64,000 bases of DNA. Origin: Candidatus Sulfopaludibacter sp. SbA3 (lineage in GTDB: Bacteria > Acidobacteriota > Terriglobia > Bryobacterales > Bryobacteraceae). Below the pieces are notes generated by a model, which saw only the letters and a list, made by a program, of their open reading frames with translations, was not told the origin of the DNA and did not search any database. This document shows positions 16,428 through 64,000 of this stretch, piece by piece; the stretch's first letter is position 1; each line of letters begins with the position of its first letter. The stretch spans positions 124,001 through 188,000 of the forward strand of contig CAMDED010000001.1 in the NCBI GenBank assembly GCA_945893365.1. Direction: 5' to 3'. A program made the translations under genes and the position numbers.

Positions 16428-16772
16428 TTAAACCCACCTCACGCGATTACGCTCGATGAAGAAATGACTCATGCAGGTGCCGGCTGGCTGCCAGAGCGAG
16501 GGCCGCAACGTCACAGCGCCTTCCTCTTCGAAGAGATCCCAACTCGGACATTTGCTCTTCATCAGGTTTACGTCAATCCGAGCACCGCATCCACAGGGGC
16601 AATCAAAAACGACCCAGCGCGGCTCTCCCCCGCGCGAGACGATGTAGATGGTTCGCCCGAGCCTAATGGGAAGGGAATCCATGGAATCAATTGTCCGGAC
16701 GTTCGCGTAGGCGCTCCGCCGACGAAGTTCTACCCAGAATTTCCGAAGCCAGTTCAAAAGCGCGACGATCAT
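16428..16772 (-). CDS. DUF6527 family zinc-binding protein
   Basis: This 114-residue protein starts at 16772, where its ATG overlaps the stop of the JAB-E1 gene as ATGA. After a basic N-terminal helix it has IYIVSRGGEPRWVVFDCPCGCG, then MKSKCPSW and GTCMSHFFIERNRVRWV. The Cys cluster (CPCGC, further Cys and a His) indicates a zinc-ribbon-like fold. Proteins annotated DUF6527 are known beside E1, E2 and JAB genes in bacterial ubiquitin-like operons. A role as a ligase-like or substrate adaptor is inference. The name rests on pattern recognition of the CPCGCG region and the location. Confidence 0.7.
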   Translation of the reverse strand: MIVALLNWLRKFWVELRRRSAYANVRTIDSMDSLPIRLGRTIYIVSRGGEPRWVVFDCPCGCGARIDVNLMKSKCPSWDLFEEEGAVTLRPSLWQPAGTCMSHFFIERNRVRWV

Positions 16773-18151
16773 TCTGGCCTCCACGTTGTGTCGAGCAGCG
16801 GCTCGACGTCGCCCCGTCCCCATTTCGTCCGGTCTTGGCAGAAGCAATCAGCATCAACCCTGCCCGCAGTCGTTCGGGTAGTTGTTTGGTCGAACAGATG
16901 GAGCACTTCGCTCGAAGCCCTTTGAGAGCCCATGAATCCGGTCAGCCGGTGAAGGAGTTCGGCAACTGCGCTCGATGCAACCGCGCTCGTGAAGGTAATC
17001 ACCGCCGGGGCTGGCCCGGCAAGTTCAGGGGCGTACCCCTCCTTGCGCCATTCTTCGGCCCGCTCAGGATCGAGCGCTGAAATCGATTCGTTCCGCACGC
17101 CTTGGATGGTGATGCGCTGCCGACAGAACAGACATGGCGCGCCAGCAACGAGGGTTGTGACGCGTCCTTGAATGCTGCGGATGCTGCCGTTGTTTGAATC
17201 GATTTTCACTCCCATGTCGAATACGGGCACGTGGTAATAAATCGCGAGGCGCGTTAGCAGAGAACGACCCCACTCGTCATCGGTACAGCCGAAAATCACA
17301 TCGCAGAGCTTGAACTCCTCCGCCACGCTCCGGCATGTGACGTCCTTATGGAAAACCTTGACCCGCGTTCCGAAGCCCATTCGGGTAATGTGGTCCCGCT
17401 GAATTTCTGCCTTTGGCCGGCCTGCGGCGGCGAGAGACGATCCGTAAACGCGTGTTGTGTTTGAAGTGTCGAGGCACTGGCCGTCAGCGATGAGGAGTTC
17501 TCCCACGCCGAGCCGCGCCAATTGCTCGCCTACTGCCGAACCAGTTCCGCCCGCGCCCACGATGCCGATCCGCATCTGGTTCAGTTCGACCTGGAGGTTC
17601 TGGCCGAATGCCCGAATCTGCCGGTCGTAGACACCCAGGTTTGGCTCCGCAATGTGTCCGCGACGAAAGGTGCGGAGGCGATTTCCCACAACTCGAATAG
17701 CCTCGATTGGGACGTGGGAGCCATTGGGCAACCAGACTCGTCCAACTGGGCGTTCCGGTGACGACAGGACAACGCTACCGTGAACCGGTGCGCCGTCAAT
17801 CCGAGCGTGAGCGGTTCTGAACAGCATCATTTCCTGTTCATCATCCCGACGAGATTGCTCCGGCACACCAGCCGGATGCGAGTGCACGAAGACGAATGCC
17901 TGTCTGGTAGCGTTCGCACGCTTCATCGCTCTTAGGAAAGATCGCGAGGCAATTATCATGTGAGTGCGCGATGAGCTTTCCGTTTCCTCGTCCGATACCG
18001 GTATCACCTCGCGGGCCAGCAGCCGGAGCTCGCCGGGACCTGAAACGAGTCGGCAGAGCAGGTACGCAGCGCGTTCCACCCGCTCTGTCTGAAAGAGATG
18101 GCCCACCAAGCCTTCGAACAGCACCTCAGGAATGGTCAAGGAGTACCGCAT
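16769..18151 (-). CDS. JAB protease-E1 (ThiF) fusion protein
   Basis: This 460-residue protein has two enzymes in one chain. The first 150 residues are a JAB/JAMM metalloprotease with VFVHSHPAG followed by SRRDDE, the HxHP...SxxD zinc-binding pattern. From about residue 200 it is an E1-like adenylyltransferase: IGIVGAGGTGSAVGEQLARL binds ATP, NTTRVYG holds the conserved Arg, and PCLFC with a later CFC could bind zinc or carry the catalytic Cys. Together they would trim the ubiquitin-like protein and activate its C-terminus for transfer to the E2. I start it at 18151, one base after the E2 stop, although the frame extends to 18232 inside the E2 gene. Its end overlaps the DUF6527 start. Confidence 0.9.
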   Translation of the reverse strand: MRYSLTIPEVLFEGLVGHLFQTERVERAAYLLCRLVSGPGELRLLAREVIPVSDEETESSSRTHMIIASRSFLRAMKRANATRQAFVFVHSHPAGVPEQSRRDDEQEMMLFRTAHARIDGAPVHGSVVLSSPERPVGRVWLPNGSHVPIEAIRVVGNRLRTFRRGHIAEPNLGVYDRQIRAFGQNLQVELNQMRIGIVGAGGTGSAVGEQLARLGVGELLIADGQCLDTSNTTRVYGSSLAAAGRPKAEIQRDHITRMGFGTRVKVFHKDVTCRSVAEEFKLCDVIFGCTDDEWGRSLLTRLAIYYHVPVFDMGVKIDSNNGSIRSIQGRVTTLVAGAPCLFCRQRITIQGVRNESISALDPERAEEWRKEGYAPELAGPAPAVITFTSAVASSAVAELLHRLTGFMGSQRASSEVLHLFDQTTTRTTAGRVDADCFCQDRTKWGRGDVEPLLDTTWRPE

Positions 18152-18152
18152 G

Positions 18153-18560
18153 TCAAAGGCCCTGAGCGAGCTCCGCCCGAATCGACGCGAGGTAACTCCG
18201 CATGTTGTCGGTGCCGGGCCTCCAACGATCATCTGGAAAGTGCCGTGACCACCGCTGGCAAGTGCGGCCGCAGTGAGTCTCGTGCACGTCGCTCGACTTC
18301 GGCCAAGCCCCGCTCGAGAGTTTGATGTCGGGGCTCGTCCAAAACATGTCGGGTTTGGCGTTCGGGTAGCCAGCGGGCAACTGCACGAGTAGTTCTGCCT
18401 GGTTGGGAGTGTACGGGGCTGGAAACGGGAAGTCTCGAATAATCACCCAGACCGCCCCGTTCTCAGGCTGAACATCAAACGAGTATCCTTTCTCGGAAAG
18501 GAAATCCGCATCGACTTCAGGGATGAGAGCTTTAGAGGTTGTGGTTGCCACTGCGCTCAT
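18153..18560 (-). CDS. E2/UBC-like conjugating protein
   Basis: This 135-residue protein resembles the prokaryotic E2 family found in ubiquitin-like operons. Visible features are FPAPYTPNQAELLVQLPAGY, the PNAKPDMFW segment that corresponds to the E2 P-x-x-x-P strand, then HETHCGRTCQRWSRHF with candidate active-site Cys, and a C-terminal helix with DNMRSYLASIRAEL. It would accept the ubiquitin-like protein as a thioester from the E1 domain and pass it to targets. The chosen start at 18560 overlaps the end of the ubiquitin-like gene by 29 bases. Confidence 0.8.
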   Translation of the reverse strand: MSAVATTTSKALIPEVDADFLSEKGYSFDVQPENGAVWVIIRDFPFPAPYTPNQAELLVQLPAGYPNAKPDMFWTSPDIKLSSGAWPKSSDVHETHCGRTCQRWSRHFPDDRWRPGTDNMRSYLASIRAELAQGL

Positions 18561-18846
18561 CGCGTCCCTCCCCTGCACCCGGGTTCAGGGTGCGCTGCGC
18601 GGAGTAGAACTTCTCATGCGGGGTTAGGTGAATCTTTGTACCGTCATTCGGCACCAGTTCATCGTCACCCTGGCCGCAAACCTCGCGCCAGAGGTCGTAC
18701 CCCGCCGGGACACCGCCCAGCGCGTATAGCGCGGCGCCAGTCGTGGGGTTGGGCGACCTATGATGCTTGCGATCAATGCTGATCTCTACCTCGTGGTTGT
18801 GGTGCTCCGGTTGGTGACCATGCTCGTTCGTCTGTTCAAGGTTCAT
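18532..18846 (-). CDS. Ubiquitin-like protein with a single multiubiquitin-type domain
   Basis: This 104-residue protein holds one beta-grasp domain of the Multi_ubiq type: VEISIDRKHHRSPNPTTGAA, LYALGGVPAGYDLW, then an acidic turn with DDELVPNDG and a final FYSAQRTL strand. About 20 residues follow the fold, starting NPGAGEG, so the mature C-terminus may be made by the JAB domain encoded downstream. No terminal di-Gly is present in the precursor. The ATG at 18846 has a strong AAGGAG site seven bases upstream, which decides the start against the longer open frame to 18930. It is the first gene of the E2 and JAB-E1 operon. Confidence 0.8.
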   Translation of the reverse strand: MNLEQTNEHGHQPEHHNHEVEISIDRKHHRSPNPTTGAALYALGGVPAGYDLWREVCGQGDDELVPNDGTKIHLTPHEKFYSAQRTLNPGAGEGRDERSGNHNL

Positions 18847-18937: not shown

Positions 18938-19480
18938 CTACCCCATTACTCGATACTCATACTGTTCCCTTCCTGCTGACGAGGCCACCTTTTCACGGCG
19001 CACCAAGCCAAGACCTACCAACTTCGCCAAGCGCTCATTCATAGCGTTGAGATTCAATCCAAGTTTGTCCTTCAGACCGGCAGACGTAACTACGCCCTTA
19101 GCTGCAACTACGGCCTCGAACGTACTACGATCAGTGGCATTGACCTTGCCCAGGAGCTCAAGATTGCGACCTTGGCGCTCAACTATCACCAAGCCCATGC
19201 TCTCCATGGCCTTTATCAGATTCTCTTTCGTGTACTCGGTAAGGTTTTCCACGACGACGAATCGGCCAGAATACTCGCCACCGAGCGACATGACAGTCTT
19301 TCCAAACAATTCGTTGGCAAACGAGAAATCGAAAACATCCACGCCCTTCGCGTCCAAGACCAGAACGTCCCCTCCCGACATCGAGTCCATGAGCTCGACA
19401 ACCACCTTCCGAATCGTCCGAGCCAAATCGCGGGTCCAGAGCTGCTTCCCGTATTCAGCTAGGATCAATCTCTTATCCAT
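18938..19480 (-). CDS. STAS-like (DUF4325) and helix-turn-helix protein
   Basis: This 180-residue protein has an N-terminal STAS-like domain: DVLVLDAKGVDVFDFSFANE, then ELFGKTVMSLGGEYSGRFVV. A C-terminal winged-helix-like part follows, with TSAGLKDKLGLNLNAMNERL and LVGLGLVRRE. Such proteins may sense a partner ATPase and bind DNA, but no target is known here. It lies 31 bases after the STAS/GHKL ATPase gene, and an 11-bp palindrome fills part of that gap. It ends 91 bases before the ubiquitin-like operon, so it could regulate that operon; this is inference from position. Confidence 0.75.
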   Translation of the reverse strand: MDKRLILAEYGKQLWTRDLARTIRKVVVELMDSMSGGDVLVLDAKGVDVFDFSFANELFGKTVMSLGGEYSGRFVVVENLTEYTKENLIKAMESMGLVIVERQGRNLELLGKVNATDRSTFEAVVAAKGVVTSAGLKDKLGLNLNAMNERLAKLVGLGLVRREKVASSAGREQYEYRVMG

Positions 19481-19483
19481 TAC

Positions 19484-19494: not shown

Positions 19495-19511
19495 CAGATG
19501 GAAAACGCCTG

Positions 19512-28069: not shown

Positions 28070-28393
28070 TGCACCCTTCAACGGTCCCTGGACAATTTAG
28101 CGAAGTAACCACTTTACGCTTTTTTCAGGGACTCAAGCGGCGCAAACCAAACCCCTCACACGCCCCAAGCGCCGCCGCCTACGCCGCCCGCTTCGCCATC
28201 AGGTCATGTAAGATTCCAGCGCCGGACAACCCGCTGGGGAATAGAATGGTTGTTCTCGGATAGCGAACGAAAAACAGCGGATCGCTGCGGATAGGCAGTG
28301 GTCTGCCGACGCGATCAGCGTCGCATACTGCCTTTGGCGCGGGGGCCGCATGAAGGATACGGGCCCAAGAAAGATAGGGACTCAGGCGACGAC
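28070..28393. other. Divergent intergenic region
   Basis: About 320 bases separate the QueC-partner gene (leftwards) from the helicase gene (rightwards). It should hold two divergent promoters. I see no clear consensus boxes, no small gene and no repeat that stands out. A short frame at 28298 continues into the helicase frame, but its composition does not look coding. Confidence 0.4.
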
Positions 28394-31300
28394 ATGAATG
28401 TATTCGAACTTCGTGAGCGGTTGATCGGCGATTATTCCTCCTACATCCGGAGTTTCATCAAAATTCGGGACGAGCGAGTCGATGCGCTTGTCACCTCGTG
28501 CCTTGACCGCGGTCTCCTGTGGCCGAATCCGCTGATCCAGCTCAACCCTAATTTTGAATTCTCTGGTTCCGTGGAAGCCATGTCTGCCGACGGCACGCTC
28601 CACCCGGAGTGCGCGCGAGTATTCCGCGCCAAAAAACGGGAGGGCATCGGCAAAACCCTCCAACTCTATCTCCATCAGGCCGAAGCTATCCAAAAGGCGA
28701 GAGAAGGCCGCAATTACGTTCTCACCACCGGAACCGGTTCCGGGAAGAGCCTCGCCTACATCATTCCAATCGTCGATCGCGTTATTCGCGACGGCGGCGG
28801 CAAGGGGATTCAGGCAATTGTCGTCTACCCGATGAACGCGCTCGCAAACAGCCAGTTGGGTGAACTCCACAAATTCCTCTGTGACGGCTATCCCGACGGC
28901 AAAGGCCCCGTGACATTCGCCCGCTATACCGGTCAGGAGGACGATGCGGAGCGGAAACGCATCGTTGCGACTCCCCCGGACATCCTGCTCACCAACTACG
29001 TGATGCTCGAACTGATCCTGACGCGGCCCTATGAGAGCGGGCTGATCAAGGCGGCGCAGGGATTGAAGTTCCTCGTTCTCGATGAACTGCATACCTATCG
29101 CGGAAGGCAGGGCGCCGATGTAGCTTTGCTCGTCCGCCGTTCTCGCGAGTTCTTTAGTGCGAAATCGATGCAGGTGGTCGGTACGTCCGCAACGCTTGCC
29201 GGTCCGGGGACATTTGCCGAGCAACGAGCCGAAGTCGCGCAAGTCGCGTCCGTACTTTTTGGTGCGGAAGTGACCACTGACGACGTTATCGGCGAAACTC
29301 TTCAGCGCTCCACTTCCGAGAAATTATCAGCTGATCCGGACTTTGTCTCTGCCTTGAGGCAGCGTTGTCAGGCCGAAAGCAAACCGCCCGTCCTCTATGA
29401 GCAGTTTGTCGCCGATCCGCTCTCCAACTGGATCGAGGGAAAATTCGGCGTGTATCGCGATCCCGAATATGGCAGACTCCGGCGTCAGAAACCCTCCAGC
29501 CTGACTGGCGCGGCCGCCGAACTAGGCGAACTCACCGGTATAGATCCTGGGATTTCTCAGAGGCTGATAGCTGATACGCTGCTGGCAGGATACCACTGCG
29601 AGCCGAATCCCCAGACCGGTTTCTCCCCCTTTGCGTTTCGGCTGCACCAGTTCATCAGTCGCGGGGATACCGTCTACGCCTCGCTCGAAGCCGAAGACAC
29701 GCGCTATCTCACGTTGAACCGCCAGCAGTTCGTGCCCGGTGATCGCAACAAAATTCTGCTCCCTCTGGTTTTCTGCCGCGAATGCGGCCGGGAATACTAC
29801 TGTGTGCGGCGTACCGAAGATGATGATGCCCCCGTAAACTTCTCGGCGCGTGAATTGCAAGACCGTTCCAGCATCGACAAGTCCGTCGCCGGTTTCCTTT
29901 TCCTCAGTATCGAGCGTCCCTGGCCTTCGGGCACGGAAGAAGAAATTGCGCGAGTCCCAGACGATTGGAAAGAAGAGACCGGCAAGGGCACTCAGATCAA
30001 ACGGTCATTGCGAAAAATGCTGCCTCAACCGGTTTCCATCTCGGCCAAGGGGCAGTCGGGTGGGGACGTGCATTGCCATTTCCTTCCCGCACCCTTTCGC
30101 TTTTGCCTGCACTGTGGGGTTTCGCACTCGTCCCGCACTACCTCTGATTTCGGCAAACTGACTTCTCTCGGCACCGAAGGACGCAGCACCGCCACCACTC
30201 TACTGAGCCTCGCCACGGTCCGTCACTTGCATAAGGAAGGCACACTTGCCCCGCAGGCGCGGAAGCTGCTCAGCTTTACTGATAACCGGCAGGACGCTTC
30301 TCTTCAGGCGGGTCATTTCAACGATTTCGTGCAAATCGGCCTGCTCCGCGCCGCTCTCTTCAAAGCCTGTGAGAACGCCGCCCCGGCAGGACTGTCGCAC
30401 GATGTCCTCACTCAAAGGGTCTTCGACTCTCTTGCCTTTCCCTTCGCCGGTTTCTCGAAAGATCCTGATCTCAGGTTCCAGGCGAAGGTCCAGACCGAAC
30501 TGGCGTTCCGCAACGTAATCGGCTACCGGCTCTACCACGACCTCCGGCGTGGGTGGCGCGTCACTTCGCCCAACCTCGAACAATGTGGACTTCTCGAAAT
30601 CCAGTACCTCTCTCTCGACGAACTGTGTGCAGACCAGCCTTCCTGGGCCGGCCACCATCCCGCCCTCGCGGGCGCATCGCCCGAAACCCGTAAGAAAATC
30701 GCCCACACGCTTCTCGATTTCATGCGGCGCTCCATGGCCATTCAAGTGGACTATCTGGACCAGATGAAGCAGGAGACCATCCTGCAGCAAAGCAATCAGC
30801 GGCTCATCGATCCCTGGGCTTTTGACGAGAATGAACTTCTGGAGCATGCCACAATTCTGTATCCCCGGCCGGGCGCGGAATCGGATTCCAGAGGCGATGT
30901 ATTTGTCACGGCGCGCGGCGGCTTCGGCCAGTTTCTTCGCCGCTCCGAAAACCTGCCCGAATATCGCACCAAGCTCACGACAGCCGACGCTGACCGGATC
31001 ATCGGCCAGTTGTTGAGTACGCTCCAGTCCGCCGGACTTGCGGAAATTGTCCGTGAACCACGGGAAACCGGCGACGTACCCGGCTACCGTCTGCCTGCCT
31101 CAGCCCTTGTTTGGACGGCTTCCACCGGTGAGCGCCCGTTCCGCGATCCCATCCGTGTTCCAGGCGAATCGACCGCCGAGGGTCGAACCAATCGCTTCTT
31201 TGTAGACTTTTACCGCAACATGGCCGCGGAGCTCGTCGGCTACGAAGCCCGCGAGCACACCGCGCAAGTCCCTTATGAGGACCGCATCAAACGCGAAGAG

Positions 31301-33562
31301 CGTTTCCGCAAAGGCGATTTGCCCGTCATGTACTGTTCGCCCACCATGGAACTCGGCGTGGACATTGCCGAACTCAATGTGGTCAACATGCGCAACATTC
31401 CGCCTACACCCGCCAACTACGCGCAACGTAGTGGGCGGGCGGGGCGGAGCGGCCAGCCGGCCCTTGTGTTTACCTACTGCACCACCGGCAGTCCCCACGA
31501 TCAGTACTTCTTCAAACGCCCGCAGCGCATGGTCTCTGGGGAAGTCACGCCGCCCCGTCTCGACCTCGCGAATGAGGACCTCGTTCGCGCGCACCTCCAA
31601 GCCATCTGGCTCAAGGAGTCCGGACTCGACCTTCGGAAGTCGCTTAGCGACCTCCTCGACGTTGCCGGTAACGACCCGACTCTGCGGACCATCGATTCGG
31701 TTCTGGAAGATTTGCGCAGAATACCACCGCGCATCGCGGCGCTGACGCGGGCGCATCGCGTGCTGAATACGTTCCGAAAAGACCTTGAAAGCGCTGATTG
31801 GTACACGCCCGAATGGGCCGATGAGGTCTTCAGCCAGATCGAGACCAGCTTCGAGAGCGCATGCCAGCGATGGCGCGGTCTCTGCCGGGCGGCGCTCGAC
31901 CAACAGCGTACCCAGAACGCCATCATCATGGATATGTCGCGCTCCGTTGAAGACCGGCGTCAGGCTGAACGCCTCCGCCGCGAGGCTGAATCCCAGTACA
32001 AGCTCCTGACCGAAACGCAGAACATCATGCAGTCGGATTTCTACAGCTACCGCTACTTCGCGAGCGAAGGCTTCCTCCCCGGCTATAATTTTCCGCGCCT
32101 GCCGCTCTCCGCCTATATTCCGGCCCGGCGAACCACCCAGCGCGATGAGTTCCTATCCCGCCCCCGCTTCCTCGCCATCACCGAATTTGGCCCGCGCGCC
32201 ATCGTATACCACGAGGGATCGCGATACCTCGTGAATAAGGTCATCTTGCCGCTCGGTACTGACGGGCCGATTCTCGGAAGGCTGAAACGGTGTGAGCATT
32301 GCGGTTACCTTCACGTCATCACAAATCCCCCAGGCCCCGATCTCTGCGAGAACTGCGACGTGCCGCTCCCCTCTGCGATGGACAAGATGTTGCGATTGCA
32401 AAACGTATCCACTCGCCGTAAAGACAAGATCAATTCCGACGAGGAAGAGCGGCTCCGGCTCGGCTACGAAACCCAGAGCGGTTTCCGTTACGCCGAATAT
32501 CGAGGCATGACGTCGCACCAGACGGCCCAGGTGCAGTCGGGGCCGGTGACCGTCGGCGAAATCCACTACGGTCACGCCGCAACTCTCTGGCGGATTAACC
32601 TCGGCTGGCGCCGCCGCAGGAATCGCGACCAGTATGGCTTCGTCCTCGATACCGAGCGTGGCTACTGGCAGCGCAGCGAAGAGAGTCTCTCCGATTCGGA
32701 CGACGGCGGCGTCGATCTTGACCCGGTGAGCCGCCGGAATGAACGCGTAATCCCCTACGTCGAAGACCGTCGGAACACGCTCATTTTCGAGCCGCTCCTG
32801 ACGCAGTCGCGCGAGGTCATCACGTCGCTCGCGTTTGCACTCAAGAACGCTATTCAAATTTCCTACCAGCTCGAAGACGGTGAACTCGCCGCCGAACTAC
32901 TTCCGGATTGGTCCGAACCCCGCACCATCCTGCTCTACGAATCGGCCGAAGGCGGCGCGGGCGTACTCCGCCGTCTCCTGGCCGATCCGGCCGCATTCCC
33001 CCGCATCGCCCGTGAGGCGCTCAATCTGTGTCACTTTGAGCCCGATACTGGCGACGATCTCCATCGCGCGCCGGGTTCCGCGGAAGACTGCGAAGCCGCG
33101 TGTTACGATTGCCTGCTGAGCTACTCCAACCAGCTCCAGCATCCGCTCCTGGACCGCAAGGCCATCAAAGACTTTCTCTTCGAATTCCAAAGCTCGACCG
33201 TCGTGATTTCGCCCGCAGCCATGCCGCGCGCCACGCACCTCGCCGAGCTCAAGCGCCTCTGCGCGTCCAAGCTCGAAGAAGGATGGCTCGATTTTCTTGA
33301 AGCCAACGACTGTCGTCTGCCCTCGTCTGCCCAAGGCTTCATCGAGGCTGCCATGACAAGACCGGATTTCTTCTACGACGGCCACAACGTCGCCATCTAC
33401 GTGGACGGCCCTCCCCATGATCATCCCGAGCGCCAGCAACGCGACCGCGCACAGCAGGACCGGATGGAAGACCTCGGGTACCAGGTAATCCGGTTCGGCC
33501 ATAAGGATGATTGGACTGCGATAGTCCGAAGCAAACGCGGTATCTTCGGAATCGTCAAATGA
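28394..33562 (+). CDS. DEAD/DEAH helicase with DUF1998 and C-terminal nuclease-like domain (DISARM-like)
   Basis: This 1722-residue protein is a large defence-type helicase. Motifs: TTGTGSGKSLAY (Walker A, near residue 115), LDELHTYRGRQGAD, SATLAG, and YAQRSGRAGRSGQP (motif VI) near residue 1015. Cys clusters (CRECGREYYC, CEHCGYLH with CENC, and DCEAACYDCLLSY) surround a DUF1998-type region near 1480-1610. The last 70 residues (VAIYVDGPPHDH, then RMEDLGYQVIRFG) look like a Vsr/DUF559 endonuclease fold. In DISARM, helicase DrmA and DUF1998 protein DrmB are separate; here they appear joined. Druantia DruE is the main alternative by size. I start at ATG 28394. The end overlaps the next gene as ATGA. 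Confidence 0.85.
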   Translation: MNVFELRERLIGDYSSYIRSFIKIRDERVDALVTSCLDRGLLWPNPLIQLNPNFEFSGSVEAMSADGTLHPECARVFRAKKREGIGKTLQLYLHQAEAIQKAREGRNYVLTTGTGSGKSLAYIIPIVDRVIRDGGGKGIQAIVVYPMNALANSQLGELHKFLCDGYPDGKGPVTFARYTGQEDDAERKRIVATPPDILLTNYVMLELILTRPYESGLIKAAQGLKFLVLDELHTYRGRQGADVALLVRRSREFFSAKSMQVVGTSATLAGPGTFAEQRAEVAQVASVLFGAEVTTDDVIGETLQRSTSEKLSADPDFVSALRQRCQAESKPPVLYEQFVADPLSNWIEGKFGVYRDPEYGRLRRQKPSSLTGAAAELGELTGIDPGISQRLIADTLLAGYHCEPNPQTGFSPFAFRLHQFISRGDTVYASLEAEDTRYLTLNRQQFVPGDRNKILLPLVFCRECGREYYCVRRTEDDDAPVNFSARELQDRSSIDKSVAGFLFLSIERPWPSGTEEEIARVPDDWKEETGKGTQIKRSLRKMLPQPVSISAKGQSGGDVHCHFLPAPFRFCLHCGVSHSSRTTSDFGKLTSLGTEGRSTATTLLSLATVRHLHKEGTLAPQARKLLSFTDNRQDASLQAGHFNDFVQIGLLRAALFKACENAAPAGLSHDVLTQRVFDSLAFPFAGFSKDPDLRFQAKVQTELAFRNVIGYRLYHDLRRGWRVTSPNLEQCGLLEIQYLSLDELCADQPSWAGHHPALAGASPETRKKIAHTLLDFMRRSMAIQVDYLDQMKQETILQQSNQRLIDPWAFDENELLEHATILYPRPGAESDSRGDVFVTARGGFGQFLRRSENLPEYRTKLTTADADRIIGQLLSTLQSAGLAEIVREPRETGDVPGYRLPASALVWTASTGERPFRDPIRVPGESTAEGRTNRFFVDFYRNMAAELVGYEAREHTAQVPYEDRIKREERFRKGDLPVMYCSPTMELGVDIAELNVVNMRNIPPTPANYAQRSGRAGRSGQPALVFTYCTTGSPHDQYFFKRPQRMVSGEVTPPRLDLANEDLVRAHLQAIWLKESGLDLRKSLSDLLDVAGNDPTLRTIDSVLEDLRRIPPRIAALTRAHRVLNTFRKDLESADWYTPEWADEVFSQIETSFESACQRWRGLCRAALDQQRTQNAIIMDMSRSVEDRRQAERLRREAESQYKLLTETQNIMQSDFYSYRYFASEGFLPGYNFPRLPLSAYIPARRTTQRDEFLSRPRFLAITEFGPRAIVYHEGSRYLVNKVILPLGTDGPILGRLKRCEHCGYLHVITNPPGPDLCENCDVPLPSAMDKMLRLQNVSTRRKDKINSDEEERLRLGYETQSGFRYAEYRGMTSHQTAQVQSGPVTVGEIHYGHAATLWRINLGWRRRRNRDQYGFVLDTERGYWQRSEESLSDSDDGGVDLDPVSRRNERVIPYVEDRRNTLIFEPLLTQSREVITSLAFALKNAIQISYQLEDGELAAELLPDWSEPRTILLYESAEGGAGVLRRLLADPAAFPRIAREALNLCHFEPDTGDDLHRAPGSAEDCEAACYDCLLSYSNQLQHPLLDRKAIKDFLFEFQSSTVVISPAAMPRATHLAELKRLCASKLEEGWLDFLEANDCRLPSSAQGFIEAAMTRPDFFYDGHNVAIYVDGPPHDHPERQQRDRAQQDRMEDLGYQVIRFGHKDDWTAIVRSKRGIFGIVK

Positions 33563-36423
33563 GCACCTATGCGATCGGTTCCCTCGTTCGCGCCCGCGGC
33601 CGAGAATGGGTCGTGTTACCGGAATCCGGCCAGGATCTCCTGATGTTGCGCCCACTGGGCGGCATCGAGGAAGAAGTCACAGGCGTCTACTTGCCCATCG
33701 AACCTGTGGAACCGGCCAGCTTCGCTCCACCCGACCCGGCTCGTGTCGGCGACTTCCGTTCCTCTCGCCTTCTCCGTGACGCGCTCCGCCTCGGGTTCCG
33801 TTCGAGTGCCGGCCCATTCCGCTCTTTCGCACGCCTCGCCATCGATCCGCGGCCCTACCAGCTCGTGCCTCTGCTCATGGCCCTCAAGCTGGACCCAGTC
33901 CGACTGTTGATCGCCGACGACGTCGGCATCGGCAAGACCGTCGAAGCTGCTCTCATCGCGCGTGAACTCCTCGACCGTGGAGAGATCAAACGCATGGCGG
34001 TACTCTGCCCGCCCCAGCTTGCCGAGCAGTGGCAGCGAGAACTTGCGGACAAATTTAATATCGCCGCTGAACTGGTCTTGCCCGGTACGGCTTCGCGCCT
34101 CGAACGTGGACTCGCGCCCGGTGAATCTCTTTTCGATCAGTACCCGTTCGTAATCGTCTCACTTGACTTCATCAAGTCCGACCGCCGCCGGGACGAATTC
34201 CTGCGAACCTGCCCCGAGTTCGTCATCGTTGACGAAGCCCACACCTGCGCGTGGTCCGGCGAAGGGCGTGCCACTCGCCACCAGCGGCACAACCTTCTGC
34301 GCGGCCTTGCCGAAAGCGCGGCGCGCCACATGATCCTCGTCACCGCCACTCCTCACAGCGGCAATGAAGACGCCTTTCGTTCGTTGCTGCGCCTGATCAA
34401 TCCAGAATTCGCCGCCCTGCCCGCCGACCTCACCGGTCCCACGAACGAACATCATCGCCGCCGTCTGGCCGCCCAGTTCGTACAGCGCCGCCGCCGCGAT
34501 ATCACGCAGTTCCTTCAGACCGAAACCCCTTTCCCCGGTCGCGAGGAGGCGGAACGCAACTATAAGCTGACGCCGAACTATCGCCGCCTACTTGATCGCG
34601 TTCTTGAGTACGCCCGCGAAGTGGTGACCGATGGGTCCGGCCACCGCCAGCGCGTCCAGTGGTGGTCTGTGCTGGCACTCTTGCGCGCTCTCGCCTCCAG
34701 TCCTGCCGCCGCAGCAGCCACACTTCGCACCCGCGCAGCCACACTGGGAACCGAAACCAGCGAAGAAGCCGACGCCATTGGCCGCCGCTCCGTTCTCGAC
34801 CTCACCGACGACGAGAGCAGTGAAGGTATCGACCTCTCACCAGGGAGTGACGCGGAAGCGGAAGAAGACGACCGCGCCCGCCATCGGCGCAGGCTTCGGG
34901 AAATGGCCACTCTGGCAGATGGACTGATGGGTGGTGAAGATTCCAAGCTGGCCGGGGCTGTCGATCTCGTCGCGGGGCTGCTGAAAGAAAACTATCAACC
35001 GATTGTCTTCTGCCGCTTCGTCGAGACCGCGAAATACGTCGCCGCCGCGCTCCGCGCCAGCAACAAGATTCCGAAAGGCACCGAAATCGAATCCGTGACC
35101 GGAGAACTCGCGCCAGCGGAACGCGAACAGCGCATCGGTGCGCTGGGTGAGCACGCGCGCCGCGTTCTCGTAGCCACCGATTGCCTCAGCGAGGGTATCA
35201 ATCTCCAGCAGGCCTTCGATGCAGTCATCCATTACGACTTGAGTTGGAACCCTACCCGCCACGAGCAGCGTGAAGGACGCGTAGACCGCTACGGCCAGCC
35301 CTCTCCGAAAGTCCGCGTCGTCACCTACTACGGCGAGGACAACGGCGTTGATCGCATCATCCTCCGCGTTCTCTTGCGCAAGCACAAGACCATACGCAGC
35401 TCCCTTGGCATTTCGGTTCCGGTGCCCGCCCGCGCGGAGGAACTTGTGGAAGCGATTTTCGAGGACATCCTTCTGCGAAAGCGGCCGCGGAACAACGATC
35501 AGTTACTGCTCGACTTCGCGGACGAAGATCCGCCCGCCGTCCGAAAGGTATCCGAAGAGTGGCAGAACGCAGCCGAGCGGGAAGCCCGCTCCCGCACGAT
35601 GTTCGCACAGGAAACGATCAAGTTCAGCGAGGTTGCGCGTGAGGTCGAGGCAGTGCGCTCTGCCATCGGCTCCGGCGTCGATGTGGCGGAATTCGTGAGG
35701 GAGGCTCTCCGGTACTACGGCGCAACCGTGTCCCGCAATGGGCAAGTGCTCGAAGCGCACCTGGGTGACGTGAGAAATCGCTCTGCATGGCCCCTGCCCG
35801 CCGATTGCAAGAGCATTCGTGCGCGCTTCAGTCTGCCGGTGCGCGACGGCGAGCTCTATCTGCACCGGACCCATCCTCTGGTGGAGACTTTGGCCACCGG
35901 CATCCTTGATTCCGCTCTCGACAGCGCCTCTGCCATCGATGGTTCTGGCAACCTTGCCGCCAGATGCGGAGCAGCGAGAACGCGCGCCGTCGAACGCCGG
36001 ACGACTTTAGTGCTGGTACGATTCCGGTACCACATCGAGACGGAGTGGCGCGATGGACGCCCGGGCTCGCAGTTGCTTGCGGAAGATTCTCAAGTGCTCG
36101 CGTTCGCGGGCCCGCCAGAGAATGCCGAGTGGCTGGATGCGGAGGCAGCGGCAAAGTTGATCGAAGCCGAGCCGGATGCGAATCTTGCCGCCGAACAGCA
36201 AGTGGAATCCGTGCAACGCATCCTGATCGGAATGCCCGCCCTGATGCCAGCGATTGACGACTTCGCACGGGCGCGCGGACGCGAGTTGCTCGACGCCCAC
36301 ACTCGCGTCCGCACAGCCTCCAGACTCCGGGGTGTGTCGCAGCGCGTGGAGCCGCAGTTACCCGCCGACATTTTGGGCCTCTATGTGTTTCTCCCCATCC
36401 CACGTGCAGGAGGCGCGCAATGA
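33559..36423 (+). CDS. SNF2-type helicase (DrmD-like)
   Basis: This 954-residue protein is an SF2/SNF2 ATPase. It has a small beta-rich N-terminal domain ([17 protein letters not shown]), then [18 protein letters not shown] (Walker A, near 120), VIVDEAHTC (DEAH box, near 228), VTATPHSG, a helicase C domain with [14 protein letters not shown], and a motif VI region [17 protein letters not shown]. It translocates on double-stranded DNA in the cytoplasm. In class 1 DISARM the drmD-drmMI gene order is the same as here. Both ends overlap neighbours by four bases. The long C-terminal part shows no separate domain. Confidence 0.85.
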
Positions 36424-51539: not shown

Positions 51540-51827
51540 GTGTTGTCGTTTGAGTTCAAAGGAGTTTTATCCTTCAGGGAATCCGGACCGCAAGAAACCG
51601 AGTGCCGAAGGAATCTCCGCACTGGGATGCCTACTTGCGCGGAACGCCGACGCACTAAGGAGTACTGAATCGAGGGAACTTGGCCCTTCGCGTTTGACCG
51701 CGGCGATTATGAGATCCTGAAATGCGCGCGTAGATCATCTTTACGTCTGGCTTTTGCCGGGTTTCGAGCAAAGGGCGAGACAATCGTCGACGTCGCATCG
51801 CCCTCCCGGAAACTAGATTGGAAAGCT

Positions 51828-52031
51828 ATGTCGAACAAAAAAGCGGGGGATCCGCGACGATACAGAGGCCTGATGCGGCCGGTACACTCGATTGCACGCC
51901 AGGATGAGGTGGCGTTTCCCGTCACCGTTGGGGACTACCCATGCAGCGAGCTCTTCAAGCCGAGCCGGGTCACGGCTCAACTCGACGTCGCGACTGAATC
52001 CAATCTTCAAGCGACAGACTTCGAAACATGA
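51828..52031 (+). CDS. Possible small protein before the zinc-ribbon gene
   Basis: A 67-codon plus-strand frame starts at ATG 51828 behind GGAAAG and its TGA overlaps the ATG of the next gene (ATGA at 52028), which argues for a real, coupled gene. The product has no known motif. The minus strand of the same place also reads naturally (for example ELSRDPARLEELAAWVVPNG), so the strand is uncertain. The 288 bases to its left hold nothing I can name. Confidence 0.35.
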   Translation: MSNKKAGDPRRYRGLMRPVHSIARQDEVAFPVTVGDYPCSELFKPSRVTAQLDVATESNLQATDFET

Positions 52032-53218
52032 GGCGGGCACTACGACGGACAGTGCTGTGTGCGACTTGTGGTGCGAAGATTTATTGGCTGCCCAGCGAGC
52101 CCTTGGCGGGCGGCGAGCATGTGATCGGAGGCCAGTGTTTTGAACCGCCACCTGCGACGACGCCCTGTCCGAAGTGCGGCAGCGCGGTGGACACCACGAT
52201 GGTTTATCCGTGCATTGACGGATTTCCAATGTCCTTCGATGTTCTGCGCCGCTCCTATGAAGGCTTTGCGCCCTACGTTGAAGGAAATCGTGGAACGATC
52301 GAGGACGATCTCCGGGAGATCCTGAAACTTAGGAGAACACCTGAGCAGATTGAAGAGGCGCTTAACACTCCCGATGCCCAACGATGGTTCCGGCAACGCG
52401 TGTTTTACCGCAGCTGCACCGCCTTTTACCGTTCTATTTCACTCCTGTGTGCATTCCTTACGCTGGAACGGGACGCGTTTCGAACATGGGGACAGGTCAC
52501 AGCGTATTATTCTCGCTTTTTCTTCTTGCAGGCATTCTTGAATCTCCTGCAGGCCACGTACGTCTATCCCGAGAAAGGCTATGCCTTACTTTACTATGAC
52601 GGCAGCCGACTCAGGTACAAAGATGCCAAGAAACTGCCCTCAATGATGCGCAGCGCCGGGTCTCACGAACAGTGGTGGTACCTCATGGAAGCAGTCAAAC
52701 ACCCGGCGGACTATCCCATTGAACACATGGAGATGATTGTCAGTCGCTTGGTGTTCAACCCCAGCAAACGTAACGCTGAGAACTACAGCTTCGAATACCT
52801 GGAAGGTTTTCCCGAACTTGACCGGTTCGACAAAGGGGCCCTGCAACTCCTCAATCACTTCCGCCCGAACCCCCGAACCGACCAGGACATCACTGACTTG
52901 GAGCGCTACTTTGAGGGACAGAATCCAGAAGATTGCGATCCCGGCGATTTCTATACGGATGACGGCACAGTCCTCTGGACCTACCTCGCAGCATACCTGC
53001 AGCTCGTCAAACACCTCGGATTCACCCAAGAATTCCTCACCACGTCGACGATCGCAGCATTAGCAGAACTCCACTTGGGTGCACGGATGCCGACGGTATT
53101 CGAAGGGATCGTACGTGCCACCAAGGAGATCCTCGCCGACAACTTCAGCCTCGACGACTTTCTCAAGGGACGGGCCCAACACCCCGAGCGGCTGTCATCC
53201 TTCTGGCCACCGAGGTAA
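52028..53218 (+). CDS. Zinc-ribbon helical protein inserted in the tail operon
   Basis: This 396-residue protein begins with a zinc ribbon made of CATCGAKIYWL and CPKCGSA. After that it is almost wholly helical (FYRSCTAFYRSISLLCAFLT, SRFFFLQAFLNLLQATYVY), ending with a helix-rich region. A HEPN-like or other helical effector fold is possible, but the R-x4-6-H motif is not visible. It runs against the direction of all surrounding phage genes and converges with a nuclease-like gene. Both features suggest a cargo gene that is not needed for the virion. Confidence 0.6.
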   Translation: MRRALRRTVLCATCGAKIYWLPSEPLAGGEHVIGGQCFEPPPATTPCPKCGSAVDTTMVYPCIDGFPMSFDVLRRSYEGFAPYVEGNRGTIEDDLREILKLRRTPEQIEEALNTPDAQRWFRQRVFYRSCTAFYRSISLLCAFLTLERDAFRTWGQVTAYYSRFFFLQAFLNLLQATYVYPEKGYALLYYDGSRLRYKDAKKLPSMMRSAGSHEQWWYLMEAVKHPADYPIEHMEMIVSRLVFNPSKRNAENYSFEYLEGFPELDRFDKGALQLLNHFRPNPRTDQDITDLERYFEGQNPEDCDPGDFYTDDGTVLWTYLAAYLQLVKHLGFTQEFLTTSTIAALAELHLGARMPTVFEGIVRATKEILADNFSLDDFLKGRAQHPERLSSFWPPR

Positions 53219-53302
53219 CGATTAGTCGCCCGGGCAGGATCTCGTCGGTACGACGGGAACCGTGTCGCCGCGGTCGCTTACGCCTCCTGATGATAGGAGA
53301 AC

Positions 53303-53929
53303 CTACTGACCTGAAACGATGCACGGTAGTCGCACGAATTTACCGCCCTCGTCCTCCTCGGTAAGTATTGGTGGCGTACCGGCTGGCAAGTTGCCGAACA
53401 ATTTCTCGAGGAGTTCGTCCAAGGTGTCGACGGGATTGAACAGGGACCCCCTAACAATACGATGTCTTTCACGCGACGGGCGGACTCCTTCCTTGTTTCG
53501 CGCAATCCGCTTGGCTAGACGGTCTCCTAAAGCGGTCAAGGGCTCCCCTGGTCCAGCGCCGAACCACAAGAAGCGTTTCATGTTAAGGTCGTCATCGATC
53601 TGAATCCAAATAACGCATCCACTTGGCTTCTCAGTGAGTGCCGAAGCCACGGAGACCCGCTCGGGCTTGTTACTCACACCGGTCTTTAACTGAATGTGGC
53701 GTACGACTTTGCCCCACACCATGACCAAGTCGTAGCCGTGGGCATCGAATTCACTCCGTAAAACCTCCACATCGAACACACCGCGCCGCCAAAGCGCACG
53801 AAGAGCCTCACCGACAAAAACATGCTCGATGATCTTCTCCCTCAAAGAGGAGTACAGGTGGTGGGCCGCGTCAGTGTGACGTTCTTCGCCGGCGTATCCG
53901 CTTTGTCGCGTCAGGCTTGTGTCTCGCAT
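53303..53929 (-). CDS. PD-(D/E)XK nuclease-like protein inserted in the tail operon
   Basis: This 208-residue protein starts at ATG 53929; the frame is open upstream, but that extension looks non-coding. REKIIEHVFVGEALRALW is a helix carrying the first Glu, SEFDAHGYDLVMVWG provides the Asp, and VVRHIQLKTG the Q-x-K motif of PD-(D/E)XK nucleases. The second half has no known domain. It lies just past the tape measure gene and faces the zinc-ribbon gene tail to tail, 84 bases apart. Together they may form a defence or counter-defence cargo. Confidence 0.65.
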   Translation of the reverse strand: MRDTSLTRQSGYAGEERHTDAAHHLYSSLREKIIEHVFVGEALRALWRRGVFDVEVLRSEFDAHGYDLVMVWGKVVRHIQLKTGVSNKPERVSVASALTEKPSGCVIWIQIDDDLNMKRFLWFGAGPGEPLTALGDRLAKRIARNKEGVRPSRERHRIVRGSLFNPVDTLDELLEKLFGNLPAGTPPILTEEDEGGKFVRLPCIVSGQ

Positions 53930-54106
53930 AAGAGCAGGTTCACAGCATTCACCGGCTGGACGCAAGCACGCCCACCCCGGATTGGTTATTTCGTCCAGCA
54001 CAGCAGCTGCCCGGTCCAGCCCAGGAATACCACACCGGTAAACTGACTGATCAGCCGCGGCAGTTCCTTCCAAGGCTGGCGTCTGCCTCCAACTTGGCCA
54101 GAACCG

Positions 54107-60583: not shown

Positions 60584-61357
60584 TCATACGGTTACAAGCT
60601 CCAGCGGTCCCGCATGTTTCAGGCGCGCGCTGGCGGGGACTTCGGGAAGGTCGCCCTGCACGCAATGCCGATACTCGTCCTCGCCCTGATTGCCGGGGTC
60701 GATTTGGTTGTACCAGAGATGCTTGCGGAGGCGGTCCGCGCGATCGTTGTAGCCGAGATGCCAGAGCGGAGCGTCGTCGAGCGTTGCATGCGCGCCGTGA
60801 AGAAGCTGCTGCGGAATCGAGGAGCAATGCAGGTTCCCGCCCCACGGCGTCGAGATGAAAAGAAAGTCGCGGTTGAAGATGCGGAACAAGCTCGGCCGCG
60901 CAAACTGCCGGTAAACCCCGTCCACGCGGATCTGGCGGCGCTCCGGGTAAACGCCCAGGTCGCTGTCCCAGAGGTACCGGACAGGCAACCGGAACGCATG
61001 GCCTTGAGCAGATGGAAGAGTTCGGCGGATAACCTCGGGGCCGCGTTCGTCGAGCAGCTCGTCACCGTCAATCGCGAGGGCCCAGAAAGGCGACCGCTCG
61101 TCGCGATCAAGATGAGCGCCGGGAACACACGCCATCGCCTGCGCGAGCAGGAAGTTCTTGTCGCGGCGTTCATCCAGTCCGGCGAACGTCGAGCGAAACA
61201 CAGAGACGCCGCTGATCTTGTCGCACAGCTCCGGCGTGCCATCGTCCGAGTGATCATCGAGAACGAAGACGCGCTCGCAAACCGGCAGAGCCGAGGCGAT
61301 GACGTCGGCGATCCAGCGCGCTTCATTCTTGATGCGGAGCAAACCGAAGACGGTCAT
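60584..61357 (-). CDS. Glycosyltransferase family 2-like protein in the phage operon
   Basis: This protein of about 257 residues starts at ATG 61357, overlapping the previous stop (ATGA). FGLLRIKNEARWIADVIAS with VFVLDDHSDDGT is the GT-A nucleotide-binding half, FWALAIDGDELLDERGP gives the D-x-D motif, and YLWDSDLGVYPERRQIR belongs to the acceptor part. It resembles the WaaE-like or cell-wall type family 2 enzymes. A virion or host-surface glycan is the possible target. It is third of three glycosyltransferase genes between capsid and connector genes. Confidence 0.8.
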   Translation of the reverse strand: MTVFGLLRIKNEARWIADVIASALPVCERVFVLDDHSDDGTPELCDKISGVSVFRSTFAGLDERRDKNFLLAQAMACVPGAHLDRDERSPFWALAIDGDELLDERGPEVIRRTLPSAQGHAFRLPVRYLWDSDLGVYPERRQIRVDGVYRQFARPSLFRIFNRDFLFISTPWGGNLHCSSIPQQLLHGAHATLDDAPLWHLGYNDRADRLRKHLWYNQIDPGNQGEDEYRHCVQGDLPEVPASARLKHAGPLELVTV

Positions 61358-62046
61358 AACAGATCGCCCCACTTCGACCTGTAGATTTCCGCGCCCGCCG
61401 CGATGTTGCCCGGAGAGCGTGGGTTTCCGCGGAACGTGCTTCGAAGGGAACCGTGGTCGACGTAACAGCCGTCGAATATGCCGATCTTCAAACCGGCGTT
61501 GCGGACTCGTCGGCAATAATCGTTATCTTCCCAGCCATAAGCGACGAAGTTCTCATCGAGCAGGCCGACGTGCTCGATCGTTCGCCTCGGGATGAGGACG
61601 CACACGAAAGCGACTGTGCGCGGTTCGTCGCGGAGAGGAGCATCGAGGCCGGGCTCGCCCAGTGAAAAATGAGGCGCCCGCTGCTGAGCGGGGTTCCCGG
61701 CCAGATTGGTTGTCGCCGAGATGATCCCATACTGGTTGGCCGGCCTGGATTTCCGCTGCATGCCAGTGAAGCCGCCATGCGACTGCAGCAGCGCGTCGTC
61801 GTTCATCAGGATCACGTCGTCATCGCCCGCTGCCCGGATACCGACGTTGATGTTGCGCGCAAAAATGAACGGCTTCACCCCTGTTTGCCAATCGACAGGC
61901 TCGTCGCAGGGAAGGAGGAAGCGCGTGGACCCGTCGAAATCGTCCACGACGATGATCCTGCACGTCTCGCCGGCCGCGCGGATCGCGCGCACGCACGCGC
62001 CAAGGTTGGAAGCTGTCCTGCTCGGGATGATGACGGAGAGGCTCAC
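61354..62046 (-). CDS. Glycosyltransferase family 2 protein in the phage operon
   Basis: This protein of about 230 residues starts at GTG 62046 (GTGA overlap with the methyltransferase stop); the frame is open upstream but only over that gene. It shows SLSVIIPSRTASNLGACVRA, IIVVDDFDG, and VILMNDDALLQS for the metal-binding region, then YGWEDNDYCRRVRNAGLKI, the motif of the C-terminal catalytic part. This is the typical rhamnosyl/glycosyl family 2 layout. It is second in the cassette, and both ends are coupled by overlaps. Confidence 0.85.
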   Translation of the reverse strand: MSLSVIIPSRTASNLGACVRAIRAAGETCRIIVVDDFDGSTRFLLPCDEPVDWQTGVKPFIFARNINVGIRAAGDDDVILMNDDALLQSHGGFTGMQRKSRPANQYGIISATTNLAGNPAQQRAPHFSLGEPGLDAPLRDEPRTVAFVCVLIPRRTIEHVGLLDENFVAYGWEDNDYCRRVRNAGLKIGIFDGCYVDHGSLRSTFRGNPRSPGNIAAGAEIYRSKWGDLL

Positions 62047-62600
62047 TTCACGGCCTCCAGAATCGCGGTGATCTTCCACACCTGCTCGTGCACGTCCTGG
62101 TAAGAACTCTCGCCGAGCGATACCACCCTGAAGGCCGCGGTGATGCCGTAGGTCTTGGCCAGCCTGTTGTGCGCGAACGATCCCGCCTCGAAGTACTGAA
62201 ACGAGTTCAGGCACCAGGGCGATTTGTGGGTCGGGTCCTGAAAGAACCCGGCGCCGCGGGAAGCGTTCGGCGTTTCGATGGTTGCCCGCGCGCCCGGCTT
62301 CAGCACGCGGTGCAGCTCGTTCATGAAGTGGATGCGGCCGAGCGGATGGCGTTGCGGTGCAAAGCTGAGCAGCGTTCTGAACGCACTCGAATCCCGATTA
62401 AAGCAGCGGCTGCAGACTGTTCCGGTATGGTCGCAGTCTCCGATGTGCTCGATGACGTCGTGCGCGCGGACCTCATCCACGCTGGCATCGGGCCACGGCC
62501 ACAGCGCAGCGAGATCCGCGATCTGGTCGGCGGGCTCCGCGATATCGACAGACACAAAGCCGTCGATTCGGCGGTCGCAAGCTCCAAGATTGAGTTTCAT
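62043..62600 (-). CDS. Class I SAM-dependent methyltransferase in the phage operon
   Basis: This 185-residue protein begins MKLNLGACDRRIDGFVSVDI, a SAM-binding motif I/II pair, with VDEVRAHDVIEHIGDCD as motif IV-type region and HFMNELHRVLKPGARATIET in the usual class I layout. Such enzymes next to glycosyltransferases commonly methylate sugars, but DNA or protein is also possible. Its ATG overlaps the preceding glycosyltransferase stop (ATGA). Confidence 0.85.
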   Translation of the reverse strand: MKLNLGACDRRIDGFVSVDIAEPADQIADLAALWPWPDASVDEVRAHDVIEHIGDCDHTGTVCSRCFNRDSSAFRTLLSFAPQRHPLGRIHFMNELHRVLKPGARATIETPNASRGAGFFQDPTHKSPWCLNSFQYFEAGSFAHNRLAKTYGITAAFRVVSLGESSYQDVHEQVWKITAILEAVK

Positions 62601-63220
62601 GGCTTTAAGCTGATAGGGGTCCAGGCGGAACCCATTTTTCTCGGGCTCGTGTTCCCGGCGTGAATAGTCGCGTACATCAACTCGCCGGCATCGGCGGTGA
62701 CCAGCTCGCCGAAAGCGCTGGCTTCACTGACGAACTGGTTGTCCTCTCCGACCTGCAACGACCGAAAGCGCCTCGCGCGCCACCACGAGGCCCGGTAGCA
62801 GAGCGACGTTCCGAGCGCATAGTTGGCCGTGCCCGCATAGTTCCACCAACGGTCGCCGTCCGTGAACCGCATGGAGTGATAGCCGGTGACGCTCTTCCCG
62901 CTCTCATCGAGTCGCCGAAGCTGGTCGGCCAGGCGCGCTGGCGCAGAATGATCGTCGTCGTCCCAGTGGGCGATGATGCTCCCGGCCGCGCGCTCGCAAC
63001 CGAAGTTGCGTTTGTCGCCAATCTGAACCGGCCTCTCGAGATGGATCAGCCGAATCCTGTCATCTGGCGGAACCAGGTCTCTGACGTCCTCGCCGTCCGC
63101 CAGAATCAGCAGCTCCGCGTTGCGGTGCGTCTGGTCCTGGAAACACGCAATCGCCCGCGGCAGCCACCGTCTCCGGTCGCGCGTCAGACACAGGCACGTG
63201 ACGAAAGGAGTCCCGCGCGC
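62597..63220 (-). CDS. Glycosyltransferase family 2-like protein with disrupted 5' end
   Basis: This frame reads TPFVTCLCLTRDRRRWLPRA, LLILADGEDVRD, then FGCERAAGSIIAHWDDDDHS with the acidic metal motif, and continues to WWNYAGTANYALGTSLCYRA. The first strand of the fold is present, but no ATG, GTG or TTG precedes it in frame: a TGA lies at 63221-63223 and the frame up to 63220 has no start codon. Removing one G in the GGG run near 63214 would give a GTG start at 63222 with the right frame. A base error, a frameshift mutation or ribosomal slippage is possible. The first in-frame ATG, at 62872, would cut off the catalytic half. Confidence 0.65.
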   Translation of the reverse strand, partial: ARGTPFVTCLCLTRDRRRWLPRAIACFQDQTHRNAELLILADGEDVRDLVPPDDRIRLIHLERPVQIGDKRNFGCERAAGSIIAHWDDDDHSAPARLADQLRRLDESGKSVTGYHSMRFTDGDRWWNYAGTANYALGTSLCYRASWWRARRFRSLQVGEDNQFVSEASAFGELVTADAGELMYATIHAGNTSPRKMGSAWTPISLKP

Positions 63221-63404
63221 TCACCTGCGGAGCTTCGGCGGGGACGATGACCTTTGTTTCGTACCGCACCGCTGGCGCCCCTGCCCTCTGGACGAATCCC
63301 GCCTGCAAGAGCTCCAGCGCCGTTGCATCGTGGCACTCGAACTCCTGCCCGGCGCTGACCGTCCCATACACCCCTGTGAGCTGTCGGTTGGCAACGATTC
63401 GCAT
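63060..63404 (-). CDS. Small phage protein next to capsid gene
   Basis: The N-terminal 60 residues look like a real small phage protein (MRIVANRQLTGVYGTVSAGQ, followed by EFECHDATALELLQAGFV), of a kind common beside capsid genes. The second half turns Ala/Gly/Arg-rich and overlaps the glycosyltransferase frame by about 160 bases, so the true end is uncertain and may lie near 63220. Function unknown; a head accessory role is suggested by position. Confidence 0.5.
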   Translation of the reverse strand: MRIVANRQLTGVYGTVSAGQEFECHDATALELLQAGFVQRAGAPAVRYETKVIVPAEAPQVSARDSFRHVPVSDARPETVAAAGDCVFPGPDAPQRGAADSGGRRGRQRPGSAR

Positions 63405-63407: not shown

Positions 63408-63713
63408 TTAGTCCTTTCGGAAAGTGGTGGTGTCCATGACGCGCGGGCCTTTCGTCGCATCCTTCACCGGCTCGGCCGCAACGGCCCCTCGATGGTCGAT
63501 GCCCGCAGCGAGGGGCTTCGTGTAAACATCCTGATCCTGTTTCAGATCAAAATGCTCGTTATTGTTCGGGACGTCTTTGCCGTCGCTGACAAGGTACGCC
63601 GGGCACCCGGCAATCGCGTGCAACGCTGCGCCGGTGACCGGACGGCTCAGCGTCTTCACGACGCCGTCGAGGTAGAACCGAATGTGGCCGGTATCAACCG
63701 TGTCTGAAATCAT
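63408..63713 (-). CDS. Ubiquitin-like (beta-grasp) small protein in the capsid region
   Basis: This 101-residue protein has GHIRFYLDGVVKTLSRPVTG, then AALHAIAGCPAYLVSDGKDV and FDLKQDQDVYTK. Strand, Pro-x-Thr-Gly-Ala-Ala-Leu helix start, and closing strand match the Multi_ubiq-type beta-grasp and line up with the ubiquitin-like protein at 18532-18846 (shared TGAAL). About 40 polar residues follow the fold. It is directly after the major capsid gene, where decoration or stabilising proteins are often encoded. Whether it is a decoration protein or a phage-made ubiquitin-like factor cannot be decided here. Confidence 0.5.
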   Translation of the reverse strand: MISDTVDTGHIRFYLDGVVKTLSRPVTGAALHAIAGCPAYLVSDGKDVPNNNEHFDLKQDQDVYTKPLAAGIDHRGAVAAEPVKDATKGPRVMDTTTFRKD

Positions 63714-63749
63714 TGTCTGTCTCCTGTTCGAAATGGATTGGAAGGTGGA

Positions 63750-63767
63750 GCCCGCTCGAGAGCGGGC
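63750..63767. terminator. Hairpin after the major capsid gene
   Basis: GCCCGCT, four bases, AGCGGGC form a perfect 7-bp GC-rich stem between the capsid gene and the next gene. It may act as a partial terminator or RNA stabiliser that sets capsid expression apart from the genes behind it. No T-run follows. Confidence 0.45.
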
Positions 63768-63788
63768 CCCAGGGTTAAACGCCAGCGG

Positions 63789-64000
63789 TTAAGCGGGCGA
63801 CGAGGTGAAGCTGCCGGTGACGTAAGAGCCGGGCCGGCGGGTGATGAGCGCAAGTCGTTTTTCCGCACGGACGGCGACGAGGTTCTTGGTGAAGAAATCG
63901 GCGTGTTCGGTCGAAATGTCGATCTGCATTTCCATGCGGTCGCGGATCTCGGCGGCGATGGGATTCCCGCTGCCGACGAGGAAGGTCCCCGCCGCGATGT
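63789..64000 (-). CDS. Phage major capsid protein, C-terminal part
   Basis: The frame continues beyond the window on the right, so only the last 70 residues are visible. They read GNPIAAEIRDRMEMQIDIST, then HADFFTKNLVAVRAEKRLAL and end GSYVTGSFTSSPA, the usual end of HK97-fold major capsid proteins. It confirms that the operon is a tailed-phage head and tail cluster. The stop is at 63789-63791. Confidence 0.85.
   Translation of the reverse strand, partial: IAAGTFLVGSGNPIAAEIRDRMEMQIDISTEHADFFTKNLVAVRAEKRLALITRRPGSYVTGSFTSSPA

Follow-up and report, generated by a model that had tools for sequence, protein, structure and literature searches.

The window analysed here, a 64,000-nucleotide stretch of the Candidatus Sulfopaludibacter sp. 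SbA3 genome, contains near its end a small phage gene, P0001, located behind a major capsid gene and encoding a protein with a predicted ubiquitin-like (UBL) domain. The gene, its signals and its neighbours are as follows.

63408..63713, minus strand: phage UBL gene P0001, 101 amino acids, 10.9 kDa (open reading frame; homologues; dN/dS)
63513..63689, minus strand: predicted beta-grasp domain, P0001 residues 9-67 (AF2 and conserved span)
63621..63641, minus strand: PVTGAAL, start of helix 1, a family hallmark common to the host UBL (alignment, AF2, motif scan)
63721..63725, minus strand: AGGAG, strong Shine-Dalgarno sequence of P0001 (direct reading)
63746..63771, minus strand: GC-rich hairpin in the capsid-UBL gap, 11-bp stem, no T run (sequence)
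63789..64000, minus strand: 3' end of an HK97-type major capsid gene, the rest lying beyond the window (Phage_capsid, E 7.7e-35)
63060..63404, minus strand: next late gene, phrog_2616-like, function unknown (E 1.1e-4; conserved neighbour)

When read past the end of the window (locus L008), the capsid gene is complete and of the HK97 type. Its stop codon is separated from P0001 by 75 nt, while a gap of 3 nt separates P0001 from the phrog_2616-like gene. Since terminase, portal and protease-like genes, identified from their translations, lie upstream of P0001, and connector, tail and fibre genes lie downstream, P0001 belongs among the late genes of a siphovirus prophage, whose extent in the numbering of the window is at least about 45-69 kb. 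A hairpin is found at the same place behind the capsid gene in relatives both with and without the UBL gene. P0001 is a genuine gene, as evidenced by its strong Shine-Dalgarno sequence, by 13 further distinct homologues, and by purifying selection, dN/dS over the core of the family being about 0.16-0.34 for most pairs, with synonymous sites saturated in some.

A second UBL gene, P0002, lies in a cellular operon about 18 kb into the window.

18532..18846, minus strand: host UBL P0002, a single PTTG-type domain (AF2, Foldseek, plasmid homologues)
18153..18578, minus strand: E2-like protein (Prok-E2_E, E 5.8e-34)
16769..18232, minus strand: JAB-E1 fusion (ThiF 1.3e-32; Prok-JAB 2.6e-5; HSHP...S..D motif visible)
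18938..19480, minus strand: CapS-like regulator combining a STAS-like DUF4325 with a winged HTH (described in PMC13373217)
19512..20465, minus strand: CapK-like GHKL kinase (PMC13373217)

The host UBL gene thus sits with E1, E2 and JAB genes, and relatives of P0002 on plasmids are annotated as multiubiquitin domain-containing proteins, some of them beside E2/UBC genes. According to PMC13373217, CapK and CapS regulate Bil, Bub and other immune operons in response to DNA damage.

The two UBL proteins share a sequence signature. Translated in all six frames, the window contains the pattern P-x-T-G-A-A-L-x-A-x-x-G-x-P exactly twice, in P0001 and in the UBL of the 18-kb operon, against an expectation of 0.0 from 200 residue shuffles. 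BLASTP aligns the two proteins around this motif (10/15 identities) and nowhere wider. We compared profiles, using phage-only alignments built from six phage loci and cellular-only alignments built from genomes of the same class. With hhalign, these match with a probability of 95.9-97.5% over 60-61 columns at 27-28% identity (single-comparison E 5e-9 to 7.6e-12), and the score of 54.4 compares with at most 20.9 in 200 column-shuffled controls. After PxTGAAL is masked in both alignments, a score of 33.7 remains, about 12 SD above the shuffles (9.8 +/- 2.0, maximum 18.6), which rules out a likeness confined to the pentapeptide. The phage family matches domain 1 of the cellular proteins at 97%, whereas domain 1 and the second domain of these same proteins match each other at 3%. 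Common ancestry with the C-terminal Multi_ubiq domain was considered and rejected as weak (8.5%).

Genome searches point in the same direction. In the genomes of relatives, phage-only profiles retrieved cellular UBLs encoded beside E1-like genes in G145 (E 6.6e-5 and 2.5e-4) and G260 (3.5e-4); since a spurious antisense match elsewhere has a comparable E-value (3.5e-4), such values arise by chance, and these matches count by their identity rather than by E alone. In the reverse search, the cellular profile ranks P0001 second in the whole 7.9-Mb genome, though with an E no better than 0.09. Pfam, PHROGs, NCBIfam and PADLOC contain no family matching the phage protein, and none of the nine phage members tested matches Pfam Multi_ubiq (PF14452), for which host P0002 itself scores 12.7 bits, below the curated cut-off of 24.5. 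HMM searches of PDB sequences with the phage or the cellular alignment gave chance matches only. Taken together, the profile comparisons indicate that P0001 is distantly but genuinely related to the UBL modifier of the host operon, with the whole domain in common.

The predicted structures strengthen this relationship. AF2 gives P0001 and P0002 alike a ubiquitin-like fold with a beta-beta-alpha-beta...beta order, the block of P0001 spanning residues 11-60 having a pLDDT of 85-89 (core about 87), with a low-confidence tail outside the domain. Nearly all Foldseek matches listed for the phage model are ubiquitin-like (probability 0.9-1.0, E 0.01-0.2, best 0.011); multi-ubiquitin chains are among these weak matches, and of the better ones they show the highest identities, 22-28%. 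For the host model, multi-ubiquitin proteins of solved structure rank at the top (E 5e-4 to 2e-3, rmsd 1.4-2.0). Because the phage matches have E-values of 0.01 or worse, the fold of P0001 is a prediction of moderate strength, independently backed by the sequence profiles. Homology to the cellular domain combined with a beta-grasp fold is, in our judgement, very probably correct for P0001. The original prediction, that the phage protein shares a ubiquitin-like signature with the protein of the 18-kb operon, is borne out by the profiles, by the controls with the motif masked and by the predicted folds. Neither of the two outcomes named as refuting it was observed: the predicted fold is beta-grasp, and the likeness extends beyond the pentapeptide.

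The phage proteins nevertheless depart from the PTTG-type cellular domain, represented by P0002 and by the first domain of the BubA-like proteins in G145 and G260. Both have the TG-A-L helix start, the strand pattern and the PN turn before the last strands. However, the phage members lack the acidic stretch of 8-9 residues that forms the cellular loop linking strand 3 to the PN turn, as well as the Ser-Pro preceding the motif, and the Tyr after TGxxL that is invariant in the cellular domain is replaced by His in all but three of them. Nor is there any E1, E2 or JAB gene among the late genes around the phage UBL, whose neighbours are the capsid, phrog_2616-like and glycosyltransferase genes. 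That sequence features typical of the cellular family have been lost points more towards repurposing than towards close imitation, although a decoy acting through the face common to both would be compatible with it.

The gene was also sought in other siphoviruses, as originally proposed. A capsid profile search yielded 166 loci with a capsid ORF. Named hosts of the closer loci are mostly Acidobacteriota (Granulicella, Edaphobacter, Terriglobus), and one closer locus belongs to a metagenome bin of Gemmatimonadetes; for the more distant loci, the named hosts are Proteobacteria. We recovered 14 distinct UBL sequences including P0001, the 13 others coming from siphophages that share its capsid lineage, and every recovered gene lies between the capsid and phrog_2616-like genes, with two tandem copies in L003. 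Profile matches in L018, L046, L047 and L049 were rejected as chance, for they overlap longer opposite-strand ORFs or sit in unrelated loci. A tblastn search of 50,697 phage records gave no usable match to the phage UBL, and scanning 84,980 genomes for a pattern taken from an early alignment yielded none.

Presence of the gene is patchy. Among closer capsid-locus records with room downstream, 18 of 85 carry it (duplicates included), and it is absent from phages whose capsids are 64-76% identical to the present one; since such close relatives do without it, the gene is optional. In the UBL-negative loci inspected, what separates the capsid and phrog_2616-like genes is as a rule a short gap or unrelated inserts such as HNH endonucleases. 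This combination of fixed position, patchy presence and unrelated inserts shows that the phage UBL is an accessory gene at a site that tolerates insertions. When the same phages are compared, UBL identity is 54-61% at best, against 79-83% for the capsid. On the capsid tree, UBL presence and absence require at least two changes, and since few branches are supported, gain and loss are inseparable.

How does this gene compare with known systems? With the dispensable decoration or head-fibre proteins of phage heads, P0001 has in common a small optional gene adjoining the capsid gene, but its sequence matches no PHROG or Pfam family. The solved bacterial multi-ubiquitin proteins (PDB 9cd2, 8u38, 9d5b, 9d59) share the beta-grasp fold but are multi-domain and in some cases filament-forming, and they match the phage model with weak E-values. 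Among phage structural genes, a UBL has a precedent in TAPI of lambda and T1, a ThiS/MoaD-like protein in the tail cluster beside the JAB/NlpC protein TAPK, with a conserved terminal glycine and a second (TAPI-C) domain (PMC1779556). The phage UBL has none of these traits, being encoded in the head cluster, with variable tails, no conserved terminal glycine and no TAPI-C domain, which sets it apart from the known phage UBLs as a variant form. In the literature and libraries searched, we found no description of phage-encoded relatives of Bub-type bacterial modifiers.

The best single role for P0001 is, in our estimate (probability of roughly 0.45), that of a dispensable head-associated protein, decoration or head-fibre-like, which we favour over a decoy on evidence that is not decisive. 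P0001 encodes a phage form of the PTTG-type UBL domain of bacterial multiubiquitin/E2/E1-JAB operons, and siphophages of a capsid lineage found mostly in Acidobacteriota carry it, optionally, among their late genes downstream of the major capsid gene. Its modifier role would have been lost, as suggested by the absence of a conserved conjugation tail, of the acidic loop and of E1/E2/JAB late neighbours. The protein would be synthesised late from the head operon and act without covalent attachment, its folded UBL domain docking on the capsid while variable N- or C-terminal tails project outward. Its gene adjoins the major capsid gene and is dispensable for the capsid lineage, as expected of a head decoration protein. 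On the other side, expression may be lowered by the hairpin that follows the capsid gene, a poor fit for a stoichiometric cement protein, and the cargo-like slot weakens such a role further. Since unrelated insertions, including several HNH endonucleases, occupy the same slot, position alone is no argument for a head role, and the greater divergence of the UBL relative to the capsid, also expected of an arms-race gene, counts against it.

The strongest competitor of this head-associated role, possible but in our view less likely, is a decoy that binds the E1, E2, JAB or UBL of Bil/Bub-like operons, is itself left unconjugated, and blocks modification of virion parts late in infection or upon prophage induction. 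The nearest detectable cellular homologues are indeed the UBLs of such operons, and patchy presence with divergence faster than the capsid would be consistent with it. DNA damage induces many prophages, and the host operon, in the same window, has CapK/CapS-like regulators whose published counterparts respond to it (PMC13373217). Against a decoy, that publication notes that protection against phage is still to be demonstrated for Bub operons. Also, P0001 lies in a head operon and not in an early or anti-defence region, which weakens an anti-defence role, and the cellular hallmarks are missing (acidic loop, SP before the motif and, in most members, Tyr after TGxxL). Only one host is known with both genes, a pair that was noticed since both fall within one window. 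In favour of a decoy, Bil reportedly acts on phage assembly, going by the title of Hor et al. 2024. A wider scenario is likewise possible but less likely than not: siphophages, mostly of Acidobacteriota, might have captured a UBL domain from an immune operon, and a non-conjugatable decoy or UBL coat made from the head operon might shield virion assembly from UBL conjugation. Head-associated and decoy readings predict opposite outcomes in simple assays, and both partners are present in one genome. If virion-bound, P0001 would put the ubiquitin fold to a use new among viruses; if a decoy, it would be a means by which phages counter bacterial ubiquitin-like immunity.

Another late function, as an assembly factor or a partner of the neighbouring glycosyltransferases, appears improbable. 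Glycosyltransferase genes do lie closely downstream in the present phage and in several relatives, but UBL-less phages retain both the phrog_2616-like gene and the glycosyltransferase.

Less likely still is that P0001 serves as a substrate, a role originally envisaged, in the sense that the host E1 activates it or JAB cleaves it, or that the phage uses it as a modifier. Its UBL fold would suit this, and its cellular relatives serve as the modifiers of E1/E2/JAB operons. However, the phage C-termini are variable (FRKD, FKD, KV, PE, KAK, PKP) and unrelated to the cellular tails, and they differ in length, being either long or absent past the last strand. We found no conserved C-terminal Gly or TDKS tail in the 14 phage sequences, which together with the missing acidic loop disfavours both a conjugated modifier and an E1/JAB substrate. 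Finally, a chance likeness or convergence of two unrelated beta-grasp proteins, which the low identity, weak Foldseek E-values and antisense match might suggest, is rendered highly implausible by the shuffled and masked controls and by the 97% versus 3% contrast between domains.

Several other features of the region deserve mention. The prophage head region contains a glycosyltransferase-like gene cluster with a methyltransferase (60584-63199, minus strand). The phrog_2616-like ORF overlaps a glycosyltransferase ORF in the +1 frame (62597-63404, minus strand), and no ATG, GTG or TTG lies close to the junction to start the glycosyltransferase of the present phage and of some relatives. At the junction, 36/39 phages have TTT CGT, although TTT makes up 11% of Phe codons here, and the two ORFs are possibly a +1 frameshift fusion; many relatives have a GTG start at the same junction, which may explain part of this conservation. 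HNH-type endonuclease ORFs are found behind the capsid gene in related phages (L014:5183-5830, L136, L179 and L176). Between the tape-measure and distal tail genes are two genes of unknown function (51813-54073), one with weak zinc-ribbon matches. On the cellular side, the UBL-E2-E1/JAB operon and CapK/CapS-like genes are part of a defence-island-like cluster (14521-22064, minus strand) that also includes a helicase gene and an AbiEi/AbiEii pair. Two large helicases, a DEAD protein with an MrfA Zn-binding domain and an SNF2 protein (28298-36423, plus strand), possibly form another defence system.
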